A stretch of 64,000 nt of DNA. It comes from an uncultured SAR116 cluster alpha proteobacterium. GTDB lineage: Bacteria > Pseudomonadota > Alphaproteobacteria > Puniceispirillales > Marisalimonadaceae. The notes under the pieces were generated by a model, which was not told the origin of the DNA, ran no database searches, and saw only the letters and a list, made by a program, of their open reading frames with translations. Shown here piece after piece: positions 23,792-53,910 of the stretch. Numbering within the stretch: position 1 is the stretch's first letter; every line of letters begins with the position of its first letter. The translations under genes were made by a program, and so were the position numbers. The stretch covers positions 18,646-82,645 of the forward strand of contig CABZSR010000007.1 in assembly GCA_902528415.1 (NCBI GenBank), in the 5' to 3' direction.

Positions 23792-23872
23792 TAACTTTAA
23801 ACTTGCACTTTTGTGTTTTTAGTAATTAACTATACCTAGTTTGTAACGATTATAATGTATGTAGAGGGTCCA

Positions 23873-24277
23873 ATGGCAGAGCTTTATGAAAAATGTTTAA
23901 GAGTTGGCTTAAGAATGACTTTGCCTAGGAAAATTATTTTAGAAGTTATTGAGGCAGCAGAAGATCATCCTGACGTTGATGAGATGTACAGACGAGCTGT
24001 AGAAAAAGATAGATCCATTTCAATTGCTACAGTCTATAGAACTATCAAACTTTTTGAAGAGGCTGGTATAATTGAAAAACTAGATATTGGAGATGGTAGA
24101 TCAAGATATGAAGAAGCAGGAGAGCATCATGAACATTTAATTGATGTTGAAAGTGGAGAAATTATTGAGTTCCAAAACGAAGAACTTGAAGAAATGAAAA
24201 GACAAGTCGCTCTAAATATGGGTTACGAGTTGGTGGATCACCGTTTAGAACTATTTGGAAAGAAGATTAAAAAATAA
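23873..24277 (+). CDS. fur: Ferric uptake regulator family protein (Fur)
   Basis: Fur represses iron genes when bound to Fe(II). The protein starts MAELYEKCLRVGLRMTLPRK and has the winged helix (SIATVYRTIKLFEEAGIIEKL, about residues 50-70) and the EEAGEHHEHLIDVESG metal segment near 79-95. The C-terminal Cys pairs of enteric Fur are absent, as in alphaproteobacterial Fur/Mur. The ORF track starts at ATG 23855, but AGAGGG before ATG 23873 and the family N-terminus favour 23873 (134 residues). In alphaproteobacteria this family may instead sense manganese (Mur); Fur-type palindromes near iron genes here favour iron. Confidence 0.9.
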   Translation: MAELYEKCLRVGLRMTLPRKIILEVIEAAEDHPDVDEMYRRAVEKDRSISIATVYRTIKLFEEAGIIEKLDIGDGRSRYEEAGEHHEHLIDVESGEIIEFQNEELEEMKRQVALNMGYELVDHRLELFGKKIKK

Positions 24278-28876: not shown

Positions 28877-28900
28877 TAATAATAGTAATTATCATTATTA
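28877..28900. promoter_or_regulatory. Second Fur-box-like palindrome, upstream of the 28910 gene
   Basis: TAATAATAGTAATTATCATTATTA is an imperfect palindrome centred on AATT, with two mismatched pairs in twelve. It sits 10 bases before the plus-strand ATG at 28910 and overlaps the expected -10 region downstream of TTGACT (28853-28858). Binding by Fur would block that promoter. Confidence 0.6.
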
Positions 28901-29396: not shown

Positions 29397-29867
29397 TTAT
29401 TCAGCGATTTGCTCTTGCAAGAAATTTTTGAGGCCAGCATGTTCAATTACATGTTGCTGAGACTCAATCCAATCTATGTGTTCTTCTGTATCATCTAATA
29501 TTTTGAGAAAGATATCTCTAGTTACATAGTCATTCTTGTCTTCACAAACATTTATAGCAACTTTTAAACATGATTGATTTGTCATCTCTAAGCCCAAATC
29601 TGCACTAAACATTTCAGGAACATTTTCACCAATTTTTAATTTACCTAAATCCTGCAAATTAGGAAGACCTTCAAGTGTTAATACCCTTTCAATAATCCAG
29701 TCAGCGTGCTTCATTTCACCCATTGACTCATCATATATCTTTTTGGCTAGACCTAAGAATCCCCAATCTTTTAGAATTCGAGCGTGTAGAAAATATTGAT
29801 TGATAGCTGTTAATTCGTTCTTAAGAATAATATTTAGTTGTTCTATAACAACTTTTTCACCTTTCAT
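29397..29867 (-). CDS. bfr: Bacterioferritin
   Basis: Bfr is a 24-subunit, heme-containing iron store. The 156-residue protein keeps the ferroxidase ligands E18, E51 and H54 and the heme-ligand M52 in GEMKHADWIIERVL. The segment LEGLPNLQDLGKLKIGE is also a hallmark. The ORF track starts at 29879, but GGAG in that extension is the ribosome-binding site and ATG 29867 gives the family start MKGEKVVIEQL. Its upstream region carries a Fur-box-like element. Confidence 0.96.
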   Translation of the reverse strand: MKGEKVVIEQLNIILKNELTAINQYFLHARILKDWGFLGLAKKIYDESMGEMKHADWIIERVLTLEGLPNLQDLGKLKIGENVPEMFSADLGLEMTNQSCLKVAINVCEDKNDYVTRDIFLKILDDTEEHIDWIESQQHVIEHAGLKNFLQEQIAE

Positions 29868-29950
29868 TATAAGCTCCATTTATATTATAAATAATGTTAG
29901 CTTAATAACATAGATAAATTAATAAGTCATTGTTTTTGTTGATTATTTTT

Positions 29951-29969
29951 GATAATGATAACAAATATT
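29951..29969. promoter_or_regulatory. Fur-box-like element upstream of bfr
   Basis: GATAATGATAACAAATATT matches the left eleven bases of the Fur consensus nearly perfectly, with a poor right half. It is about 85 bases before the bfr ATG. Fur could act here as a repressor or an activator; the sequence does not decide. Confidence 0.5.
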
Positions 29970-29989: not shown

Positions 29990-30018
29990 TTGACAATGAT
30001 AATAGTTATCATTATTAA
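29990..30018 (+). promoter_or_regulatory. Sigma-70 promoter with a Fur palindrome filling its spacer
   Basis: TTGACA (29990-29995) and TATTAA (30013-30018) are separated by exactly 17 bases. The palindrome AATGATAA-TAG-TTATCATT (29995-30013) covers the whole spacer. Fur bound here would exclude RNA polymerase, so the transcript should rise under iron starvation. The predicted start falls at the first base of a 10-bp stem. Confidence 0.78.
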
Positions 30019-30023
30019 TAATT

Positions 30024-30077
30024 GATGTGGATGAGCTCAAGCTATATCTCCCAAGATTGACTTAGTGCATCCACATC
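30024..30077 (+). ncRNA. Candidate iron-responsive small RNA or structured leader
   Basis: GATGTGGATG (30024-30033) pairs perfectly with CATCCACATC (30068-30077). The interior extends the rod: GCU/AGU, then AAG/CUU after a bulged C, and AUCU/AGAU closing a CCCA loop. The exposed CUCCC recalls the anti-Shine-Dalgarno loops of known alphaproteobacterial sRNAs. The predicted transcription start is at the base of the stem. No intrinsic terminator is evident downstream, so it could instead be the 5' leader of the 30171 gene, whose start is 93 bases further on. The 3' end is unknown. Confidence 0.55.
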
Positions 30078-30170
30078 ACCAATTCCCTTATCGTCATAAA
30101 ACTTAAATATTGTAAAACTACATTTTGAAGATTATTGTTAAACATAAGTATATAAGGTTTATTGATTAAG

Positions 30171-31292
30171 ATGGATAACTTTCATATTGCAACTGTTCCT
30201 GGAGATGGGATCGGTAAAGACATAGTAAACTCAGCGAAATCAATAGTTGATCTCTCATCTGAAATTATTGGTGGTTTTAAATGTAACTGGGAAAATATTA
30301 ATGCTGGTGCAGAATATTTTGCACAAGAAGGTTGTGATGTAGAACCAGGTGGTGAAGATAGAATAAGTGATGCTGACAGTATTTTCCTTGGGGCGATTGG
30401 GCTACCTACGATACGACATAAAGATGGGACAGAAGTATGCCCTCACCTCAGATTTAGAGAAATGTTTGGATTATATGCTGGAGTTAGACCAGTTAAGGCT
30501 TACCCAAACATTACAAACAGGTTAAGTAATAAATTAGCAAGTAATATTGATTTAGTTATATTAAGAGAGTCAACTGAAGGTTTGTTCTACACAGCAGCTG
30601 TTCACAACAGATGCCCCGTAGATAACAATGACGAAGTTCAGGATATTATGCGTATCACTAGAAAAACAACAGAGAAATTACATGACTTTGCATTTAAATT
30701 AGCACGACAAAGAAAGAGTAAGGGAAAGTTGGGGAAAGTTACTTGCGTTGATAAAGCCAATGTATTTCGCTCTCAGGCTTTATTTAGAAAAATATTTGAT
30801 GAGAGGAAAGATAATTTTACAGATATAGAAGCGGACCATTGTTATGTTGATGCAATGGCATTAAACCTTATAAGGAATCCCTGGGAATATGACGTTATGG
30901 TAATGGAAAATATGTTTGGCGATATATTATCTGACCTTGGTGGAGGGTTGGTAGGTGGAATGGGGATGGCTTCATGTGCAGAAATTGGAGACAACCATGG
31001 TTTATTTCAACCCGCTCACGGAAGCGCTCCAGATATAATGGGGCAAGACAAGGCAAATCCATTAGCGACTATTCTTAGCTCTACTTTGATGCTTGACTAT
31101 TTATCAGATAAAAAAGGATGTAAAAGTGCCTCTGAAGGCTCAAAACTAATAGAAGCCGCAATTGAAACAGGATTTGAAAGAAATGAGCTAAGGCCAATTG
31201 AATTTGGTGGTGATATGGGAACAAAAGCAGTAACTGAAAAATTAGTCACATTATTAAAAGATAAAAATGTTCAGAATGAAGTATTAACCTAA
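30171..31292 (+). CDS. Isocitrate/isopropylmalate dehydrogenase-family enzyme
   Basis: The 373-residue NAD(P)-dependent beta-decarboxylating dehydrogenase has VPGDGIGKDIV at residues 8-18, ILRESTEGLFYTA near 127-139 and MENMFGDILSDLGGGLVGGMGMA near 244-266. The PAHGSAPDIMGQDKANPLATI cofactor loop is also present. The STEGLFY loop is unlike LeuB (ELTGGIYFG) and typical of uncharacterised family members beside DUF1537 kinases, so a hydroxy-acid substrate is likely. TTG 30162 is an alternative start. It heads a unit with an ABM protein and a DUF1537 kinase, downstream of the Fur-controlled promoter. Confidence 0.85.
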   Translation: MDNFHIATVPGDGIGKDIVNSAKSIVDLSSEIIGGFKCNWENINAGAEYFAQEGCDVEPGGEDRISDADSIFLGAIGLPTIRHKDGTEVCPHLRFREMFGLYAGVRPVKAYPNITNRLSNKLASNIDLVILRESTEGLFYTAAVHNRCPVDNNDEVQDIMRITRKTTEKLHDFAFKLARQRKSKGKLGKVTCVDKANVFRSQALFRKIFDERKDNFTDIEADHCYVDAMALNLIRNPWEYDVMVMENMFGDILSDLGGGLVGGMGMASCAEIGDNHGLFQPAHGSAPDIMGQDKANPLATILSSTLMLDYLSDKKGCKSASEGSKLIEAAIETGFERNELRPIEFGGDMGTKAVTEKLVTLLKDKNVQNEVLT

Positions 31293-52201: not shown

Positions 52202-53910
52202 TGAGTTCAAATATTTCAAGATCTTCTTACAGTGAGATGTATGGCCCTACAACTGGTGACAAAGTTAGATTGGCAGACACAGATTTAATCATAGAAGTAG
52301 AAAATGATTTTACTGTTTATGGTGAGGAAGTGAAGTTTGGAGGTGGAAAAGTTATAAGAGACGGTATGGGACAGTCTCAAGTTACGCGTAAAGATGGTGC
52401 TGTCGACACTGTAATTACTAATGCTTTGGTTGTTGACATAAATGGAATATTCAAAGCAGATATTGGAATAAAGGATGGTTTAATACATAAAATTGGAAAA
52501 TCAGGGAACCCTGATACACAACCTCAAATTGATATCATAATAGGGCCTGGAACAGAAATTATAGCTGGAGAAGGTAAAATAATAACAGCAGGAGGGTTTG
52601 ATTCCCACATTCATTTCATATGTCCCCAACAAATTGAGGATGCACTTCACTCTGGTTTAACAACAATGCTTGGTGGTGGGACTGGTCCAGCTCATGGAAC
52701 TTTAGCAACCACATGTACACCTGGATCTTGGCATATAAGTAGAATGATCCAATCTGCAGATGCTTTTTCTATGAATTTAGCGTTTGCAGGAAAAGGAAAT
52801 TCGTCAAAACCTGAAGGGTTGATTGAACAGGTTAATGCTGGCGCATGTGCATTAAAACTTCACGAGGACTGGGGAACAACACCTGGTGCTATTGATAACT
52901 GTTTAAATGTTGCAGATAAAATGGATGTGCAAGTTATGATACATACTGACACATTGAATGAAAGTGGATTTGTAGAAAATACTATAGAAGCAATTAAAAA
53001 TAGAACTATTCATGCTTTTCATACTGAAGGAGCTGGAGGAGGACATGCGCCAGATATTATAAAAGTTTGTGGAAATCAAAATGTTATTCCATCATCAACA
53101 AACCCAACAAGACCCTATACAATTAATACCCTAGAGGAACATCTCGATATGCTTATGGTTTGTCATCACTTAGATAAATCAATACCTGAAGATGTTGCTT
53201 TTGCAGAAAGTAGAATAAGAAAGGAAACAATAGCCGCTGAGGATATACTCCACGATATGGGAGCCTTTTCAATAATTGCGTCTGACAGTCAAGCTATGGG
53301 AAGAGTTGGAGAGGTTATAATAAGAACTTGGCAGACAGCTCATAAAATGAAAATACAAAGAGGTCGACTTAGAGAAGAAAATGGTGATAACGATAATGTA
53401 AGAGTAAAAAGATATATAGCCAAGTATACTATCAACCCTGCAATTACACATGGGATTTCTCAACATATTGGATCAATAAGTGAAGGAAAAAGAGCAGACA
53501 TAGTTTTATGGGATCCTGCTTTTTTCGGTGTTAAACCTGAAATTGTAATGATAGGTGGCAGTATTGCCTGCGCACAAATGGGTGATCCCAATGCGTCTAT
53601 TCCAACCCCTCAACCAGTTTATACCAGGCCGATGTTCTCATCTTTCGGAAGATCACTTGAAGCATCATCAATAACTTTTGTAAGTAAAGATTCGATCAAA
53701 ACTGGTAGTTTAGACAGTTTGAACTTAGCTAAAGAGACAATTGGTGTTGAAAAAACAAGAGATATTTCAAAAGAAAATATGGTATTTAATAATTACTGTC
53801 CTGATATATCAGTAGATCCAGAAACATATGAAGTTACAGCTGACGGTAATATACTTACTTGTGAACCAGCAACTGAGCTTCCACTAGCTCAAAGATATTT
53901 TTTATTTTAG
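52201..53910 (+). CDS. ureC: Urease alpha subunit UreC (catalytic)
   Basis: UreC hydrolyses urea to ammonia and carbamate at a dinickel site. The 569-residue protein retains the metal His pair in [14 protein letters not shown], the carbamylated Lys in [15 protein letters not shown] and the active-site flap Cys-His in [15 protein letters not shown]. The Asp ligand lies in [12 protein letters not shown]. Length is normal. All catalytic residues appear intact, so activity depends on maturation, for which UreG below is broken. Confidence 0.98.

Follow-up and report, generated by a model that had tools for sequence, protein, structure and literature searches.

A conserved hairpin RNA element with a Fur-type operator upstream of a dehydrogenase gene in a SAR116 genus: a candidate iron-responsive RNA

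Iron limits growth across large parts of the ocean, where the SAR116 cluster is a widespread group, and we know of no mechanism for post-transcriptional iron sparing in small-genome bacteria of this kind. The closest functional analogue of the promoter-hairpin unit described here appears to be IsrR, with which no homology is claimed. The IsrR RNA of Staphylococcus and the SAR116 unit both have Fur boxes at the promoter, a genus-wide distribution, a C-rich anti-Shine-Dalgarno motif and little covariation, but IsrR consists of three stem-loops and a Rho-independent terminator, whereas the SAR116 unit has a single hairpin, with no terminator found (PMC9410917). Unlike RyhB and FsrA, IsrR is reported to be free of chaperone dependency (PMC9410917). 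A Fur-type operator at the promoter is also common to the SAR116 unit and the RyhB, PrrF and NrrF RNAs of gammaproteobacteria and Neisseria, from which the unit differs in that it gave no Rfam match and in that its host genus apparently lacks Hfq. For the Fur-controlled sRNA NrrF, petABC is an experimentally supported target, and its action on petA is apparently Hfq-independent in E. coli (PMC5586341); NrrF represses petABC, and petA is a candidate target in the SAR116 genome.

Within the alphaproteobacteria, RusT of Caulobacter resembles the SAR116 unit in its link to iron starvation and its conserved loop, which RusT uses for pairing, but it is controlled by NtrYX rather than by Fur, and it needs Hfq (PMC11005374). 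According to the same study (PMC11005374), no sRNA has been identified in the Caulobacter Fur regulon; the SAR116 unit, if our reading is correct, would provide a Fur-controlled RNA in an alphaproteobacterium. UpsM, from the 5' leader of the Rhodobacter dcw operon, is likewise an operon leader that probably acts in trans, as may be the case here, but it ends in a Rho-independent terminator, undergoes Hfq-dependent processing and is not linked to iron (PMC5089854). The SAR116 hairpin fell into none of the described RNA families with which it was compared, and it would work in the manner of a Fur-controlled sRNA only if the regulation that we infer for it holds. The AbcR sRNAs of Rhizobiales reportedly carry a short regulatory motif, and CUCCC is mentioned in one study of them. 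To our knowledge, AbcR is not Fur-controlled; no Rfam match to this family was obtained at the SAR116 hairpin.

The DNA analysed here (the window, a stretch of 64,000 nt) comes from a SAR116 genome of 1.72 Mb that is 73% complete. It contains the following features.

29990..29995, plus strand: -35 hexamer TTGACA, read from the letters, with TTGAC kept in all aligned copies
29995..30013, plus strand: palindromic Fur-type operator AATGATAATAGTTATCATT within the promoter spacer, read from the letters and little changed in the carriers
30013..30018, plus strand: -10 hexamer TATTAA (TATTGT in clade C), from the letters and the alignment
30024..30077, plus strand: predicted 5'-terminal RNA hairpin of 54 nt, from its fold and conservation
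30045..30058, plus strand: invariant apical segment UAUCUCCCAAGAUU, a candidate seed (anti-Shine-Dalgarno UCUCCC), identical in 23/23 copies
30046..30057, plus strand: predicted inner 4-bp helix AUCU/AGAU closing a CCCA loop, which never varies and hence lies outside the covariation test
30078..30170, plus strand: unconserved stretch from the hairpin to the dehydrogenase gene (48-53% identity between distant clades), with no terminator-like site
30171..31292, plus strand: gene of the isocitrate/isopropylmalate/tartrate dehydrogenase family (PF00180), called idh here, always downstream of the hairpin
29397..29879, minus strand: divergent bacterioferritin gene (PF00210; synteny)
23855..24277, plus strand: gene for a Fur-family regulator (PF01475, E 2.7e-36), a candidate repressor in the same iron-gene region

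The initial annotation had described a promoter with a Fur-type palindrome filling its spacer, and the letters bear this out: TTGACA-N17-TATTAA spans positions 29990-30018, the spacer is exactly 17 nt long, and 16 of the 19 positions of AATGATAATAGTTATCATT are self-complementary. With up to three mismatches allowed, two matches to the palindrome were found in the 64 kb window (0.45 expected), and the site at the hairpin promoter has one mismatch. The relaxed motif was not more frequent than the control genome-wide (15 sites versus 17), and only two sites in the whole genome, including that of the hairpin promoter, have no more than one mismatch. As in Fur-controlled iron-sparing sRNAs, the predicted operator overlaps the promoter, and the spacer palindrome is conserved in the carriers. 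Its position argues strongly for repression by Fur, in agreement with the gating originally proposed, and the promoter is probably on only when iron is scarce. The best NCBIfam model for the protein encoded at 23855-24277 was that of the ferric uptake regulator, with a score below the cut-off. Two further Fur-like sequences were observed in the window: a palindrome with two mismatches at 28878-28896, between a gene with a DUF4856 domain and an 89-residue ORF, and the degenerate sequence TGATAATGATAACAAATATT at 29950-29969, nearer the bacterioferritin gene. Genome G006, which has no hairpin unit, still has a box similar to TGATAATGATAACAAATATT beside an exporter gene.

The hairpin starts where transcription from the promoter would be expected to begin, at about 30024, as had been reported. 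The arms, GATGTGGATG (30024-30033) and CATCCACATC (30068-30077), pair perfectly over 10 bp and lie 34 nt apart. The predicted RNA fold is strong (-20.5 kcal/mol, z -4.54), with none of 200 shuffled sequences as stable, and the fold of the minus strand is weaker (z -2.66). The 64 kb window has about three perfect 10-nt inverted repeats with closely spaced arms and at least five G+C. Such a repeat is therefore uncommon but would not by itself settle the matter; its conservation in 23 genomes does. The CUCCC motif, which had been assigned to the apical loop, is partly exposed, but does not lie wholly in the loop, as the loop predicted at 30050-30053 is CCCA and a weak 4-bp stem closes it. No match reaching the gathering score was obtained at the hairpin with the covariance models of Rfam 15, including those of the RyhB, PrrF, NrrF and AbcR families as far as present. 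Relaxing the threshold to E values of up to 5 yielded a single sub-threshold match, on the minus strand (17.1 bits versus a cut-off of 91 bits), and at neither threshold was there a reason to revise the earlier view that the hairpin belongs to no described family. We regard the unit, with its Fur-type operator, as a real and conserved RNA element that has not been described before.

The promoter-hairpin unit was identified by DNA search in 20 genomes of one SAR116 genus, and a covariance model raised the number of carriers in this genus to 23, with one copy per genome, providing the conservation in relatives on which the initial annotation had made its case depend. Weak matches to the model on the opposite strand are the reverse reading of the same hairpin. 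In a further genome, the 24th (G004), a trace of the unit remains, in the form of the 3' arm of the hairpin at a contig end, and a contig of G014 begins just past this arm. Two genomes, G006 and G031, have idh without the hairpin unit. It is likewise missing from the idh loci inspected in the family's other genera, and the covariance-model search did not find it in other genera of the order. There was no further match in a sample of the class comprising 385 genomes, such large searches applying stricter filters, and none in the viral contigs searched. The GTDB collection contained 26 exact matches to the pattern, 22 of them from SAR116-cluster alphaproteobacteria. The other four (Actinomycetes, Rhizobiales, Bacteroidales and Croceitalea) were judged to be due to chance, as they had no resemblance to the promoter or Fur box and their flanks look coding. 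A weak model match in G070 was also dismissed, the motif being absent and the sequence resembling coding sequence.

In each of the 22 aligned leaders, 94-128 nt separate the hairpin from the ATG of idh. Downstream from the hairpin, the idh-family dehydrogenase gene is accompanied by genes for an ABM protein and a 3-oxo-tetronate kinase, with an RraA-like protein encoded on the other strand. The surroundings in the window are linked to iron, with a bacterioferritin, a bacterioferritin-associated ferredoxin, a solute-binding protein and the Fur-family regulator. In other carriers, the place of the divergent bacterioferritin is taken by an MbfA-like iron exporter (NF045676 just under the cut-off), and in G022 and G034 the upstream neighbour is neither of these genes. 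The alternation of bacterioferritin and its ferredoxin with an MbfA-like exporter amounts to a swap of iron storage and export at one locus. In G013 (L092) and G036 (L091), a hairpin region similar to that of clade C is joined to an idh similar to that of clade A (protein 96-97% identical), probably by recombination between or near the hairpin and idh. The locus of G026 (L082) was considered as a case of a hairpin split from idh and rejected: unrelated coding sequence follows directly on the initial portion of idh, the remaining part starts at a contig end, and the contig is probably an amplification chimera.

Between clade A, to which the window belongs, and clade C, identity was 82% for the promoter, 83% for the hairpin, 51% for the post-hairpin sequence and 34% for the fourfold-degenerate sites of idh; the corresponding values for clades A and B were 89%, 85%, 48% and 37%. 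Conservation thus ends sharply at the 3' end of the hairpin. The stem differs in form between clades, running through GGAUGAACU/AGUUCAUCC in clade C and through GAUGUGGAUG/CAUCCACAUC in clade A. Despite this difference and adjoining 2-nt indels, the 14-nt tip UAUCUCCCAAGAUU is unchanged in 23/23 copies, as would be expected of a seed. In the structure count, 88% of the cells were paired, versus 26-38% for slid versions. Compensatory changes in the stem had been put forward in the initial annotation as support for the RNA; three pairs changed on both sides among the aligned carriers, a number not above that in shuffles, and the evidence comes instead from the invariance of the sequence. The case for conservation is therefore one of sequence, not of covariation.

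Several readings of this pattern were weighed. A leader peptide, translated from a micro-ORF that begins within the 5' arm at a GTG or ATG (window sequence VDELKLYLPRLT), would be consistent with some of the differences between copies, which are synonymous in its frame. However, its lengths and ends vary among copies, and 2-nt deletions beside the tip shift the frame in G013, G019, G021 and G036, with the tip nucleotides remaining the same. Since these deletions adjoin an unchanged tip, what is constrained is the RNA or DNA rather than a peptide, and the micro-ORF, which we consider very unlikely, was rejected. We find it scarcely credible that the unit is a DNA element with no RNA role, such as a mobile-element inverted repeat or a palindrome bound by a protein: the repeat is perfect, and the contigs of G004 and G014 end in or just after it, but there is one copy per genome, in one place, at a fixed distance from a conserved promoter, the tip is asymmetric and invariant, and of the two strands it is the plus strand that folds better. 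The invariant tip might also serve an RNA-binding protein, as a recognition site or a decoy, instead of being a pairing seed. This would fit the invariance of the sequence on both sides of the inner helix, and IsrR stems with little covariation have been read in this way (PMC9410917). As a candidate protein is lacking and a CUCCC tip is a typical pairing motif, this appears improbable.

The alternatives given in the initial annotation were an iron-starvation sRNA and a leader of the gene at 30171. The evidence is good for Fur gating, by operator position, and for a structured RNA that is conserved and undescribed, but it fits both outcomes, with constant hairpin-idh synteny and no terminator on the one hand, and conservation ending with the hairpin on the other. 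If the element were a cis-acting leader only, the Fur promoter would drive the idh operon and no mRNA but that of idh would be governed by the hairpin, which would shield the 5' end of the message from decay or act through a protein or ligand bound at the tip. Stems at the 5' end slow mRNA decay, and the hairpin lies at the predicted 5' end, in a constant position upstream of the same gene, as in a cis-leader or riboswitch for idh. No terminator-like site was found in the window leader (30078-30170); T-runs of up to 8 downstream from the hairpin occur only in clade C. However, the stretch between the hairpin and the idh start codon is not conserved (48-53% identity between distant clades), so an expression platform is not visible, a simple 5' stabiliser would need no invariant tip, and G006, G031 and other genera have idh but not the unit. 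Action in cis alone is a possibility that we take seriously, but consider doubtful.

The reading that we prefer, with about an even chance of being correct, is that of a Fur-repressed RNA with a 5'-terminal hairpin and an anti-Shine-Dalgarno tip, acting in trans under iron starvation. When iron is sufficient, Fur would sit on the spacer operator and block RNA polymerase; when iron is scarce, transcription would proceed from about 30024, giving an RNA that opens with the 54-nt hairpin. The invariant tip would then open and pair with the G-rich ribosome-binding sites (GGGAGAU) of other mRNAs, and this Hfq-independent pairing would lower the translation of iron-containing proteins. Either a short RNA or the 5' leader of the dehydrogenase mRNA might carry the hairpin, which in the latter case would act there or after cleavage. 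This reading is consistent with the predicted operator within a near-consensus promoter and the hairpin at the predicted start site, an arrangement kept as a whole in 23 genomes, and with the iron-gene neighbourhood and its Fur-family gene. Trans action is favoured by a C-rich tip that never varies, by the abrupt stop in conservation at the hairpin and by the lack of conservation beyond it; a leader role is favoured by the constant synteny and the absence of a recognisable terminator in the window. The two roles can be compatible, by analogy with leader-derived sRNAs such as UpsM. Against the preferred reading stand the missing terminator, the constant presence of the dehydrogenase gene downstream, the non-significant covariation and a weakening of the petA match in some carriers.

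The Hfq family was found in 0/25 genomes of the genus, versus 15/16 genomes from other families of the order. As several of these 25 genomes are 90-99% complete, the genus has likely lost Hfq, and any trans-acting RNA here would need to work independently of it. In the window genome, GGGAGAU occurs shortly before an ATG at 10 places, one of which is petA, the gene that we take, from its sequence, to encode the Rieske iron-sulfur (Fe-S) protein. A perfect 10-nt complement to the tip overlaps the petA ribosome-binding site (predicted duplex -15.8 kcal/mol), suggesting that petA is a candidate target in this genome. GGGAGAU is kept at this site in about nine carriers, with GGAAGAU in G002, GAGAGUU in G001 and GUGAGAU in most of clade C, and the variants follow the phylogeny. 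Given the weakened match in clade C, G001 and G002, petA was rejected as a universal target. The number of GGGAGAU motifs before ATG codons was not above that of the reversed control in the window genome; among 14 genomes, it exceeded the control in some (G001, G018, G066 and G022) and was highest in G031. As G031 has no hairpin, the motif probably corresponds to ordinary Shine-Dalgarno sequences. Neither the bacterioferritin nor the idh start region of the window was among the best 15 of 69 for strength of pairing. Other genes with GGGAGAU in relatives encode what we presume, from reading their sequences, to be an Nfu-type Fe-S scaffold (G036), a 43-residue Cys-rich protein (G036 and G066) and substrate-binding proteins. 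The Cys-rich protein, CGCGRSPTGKCIGWH (L315 and L317), has GGGAGATATA just before its start and gave no NCBIfam match.

We tentatively suggest, while considering it short of probable, that the unit represents a new RNA family. Its members would be iron-sparing RNAs gated by Fur and independent of Hfq, each made of one 5'-terminal anti-Shine-Dalgarno hairpin and acting from a metabolic operon's leader, in an oceanic genus of alphaproteobacteria that has lost Hfq. A Fur-gated RNA in an apparently Hfq-less genus would, if confirmed, constitute an iron-sparing circuit without the usual chaperone. The conserved motif can be searched for directly in existing ocean metatranscriptomes. Elsewhere in the window, a match to the Rfam family 5_ureB_sRNA (52361-52634, minus strand, 69 bits) is probably due to conservation of the urease coding sequence and not to an sRNA.
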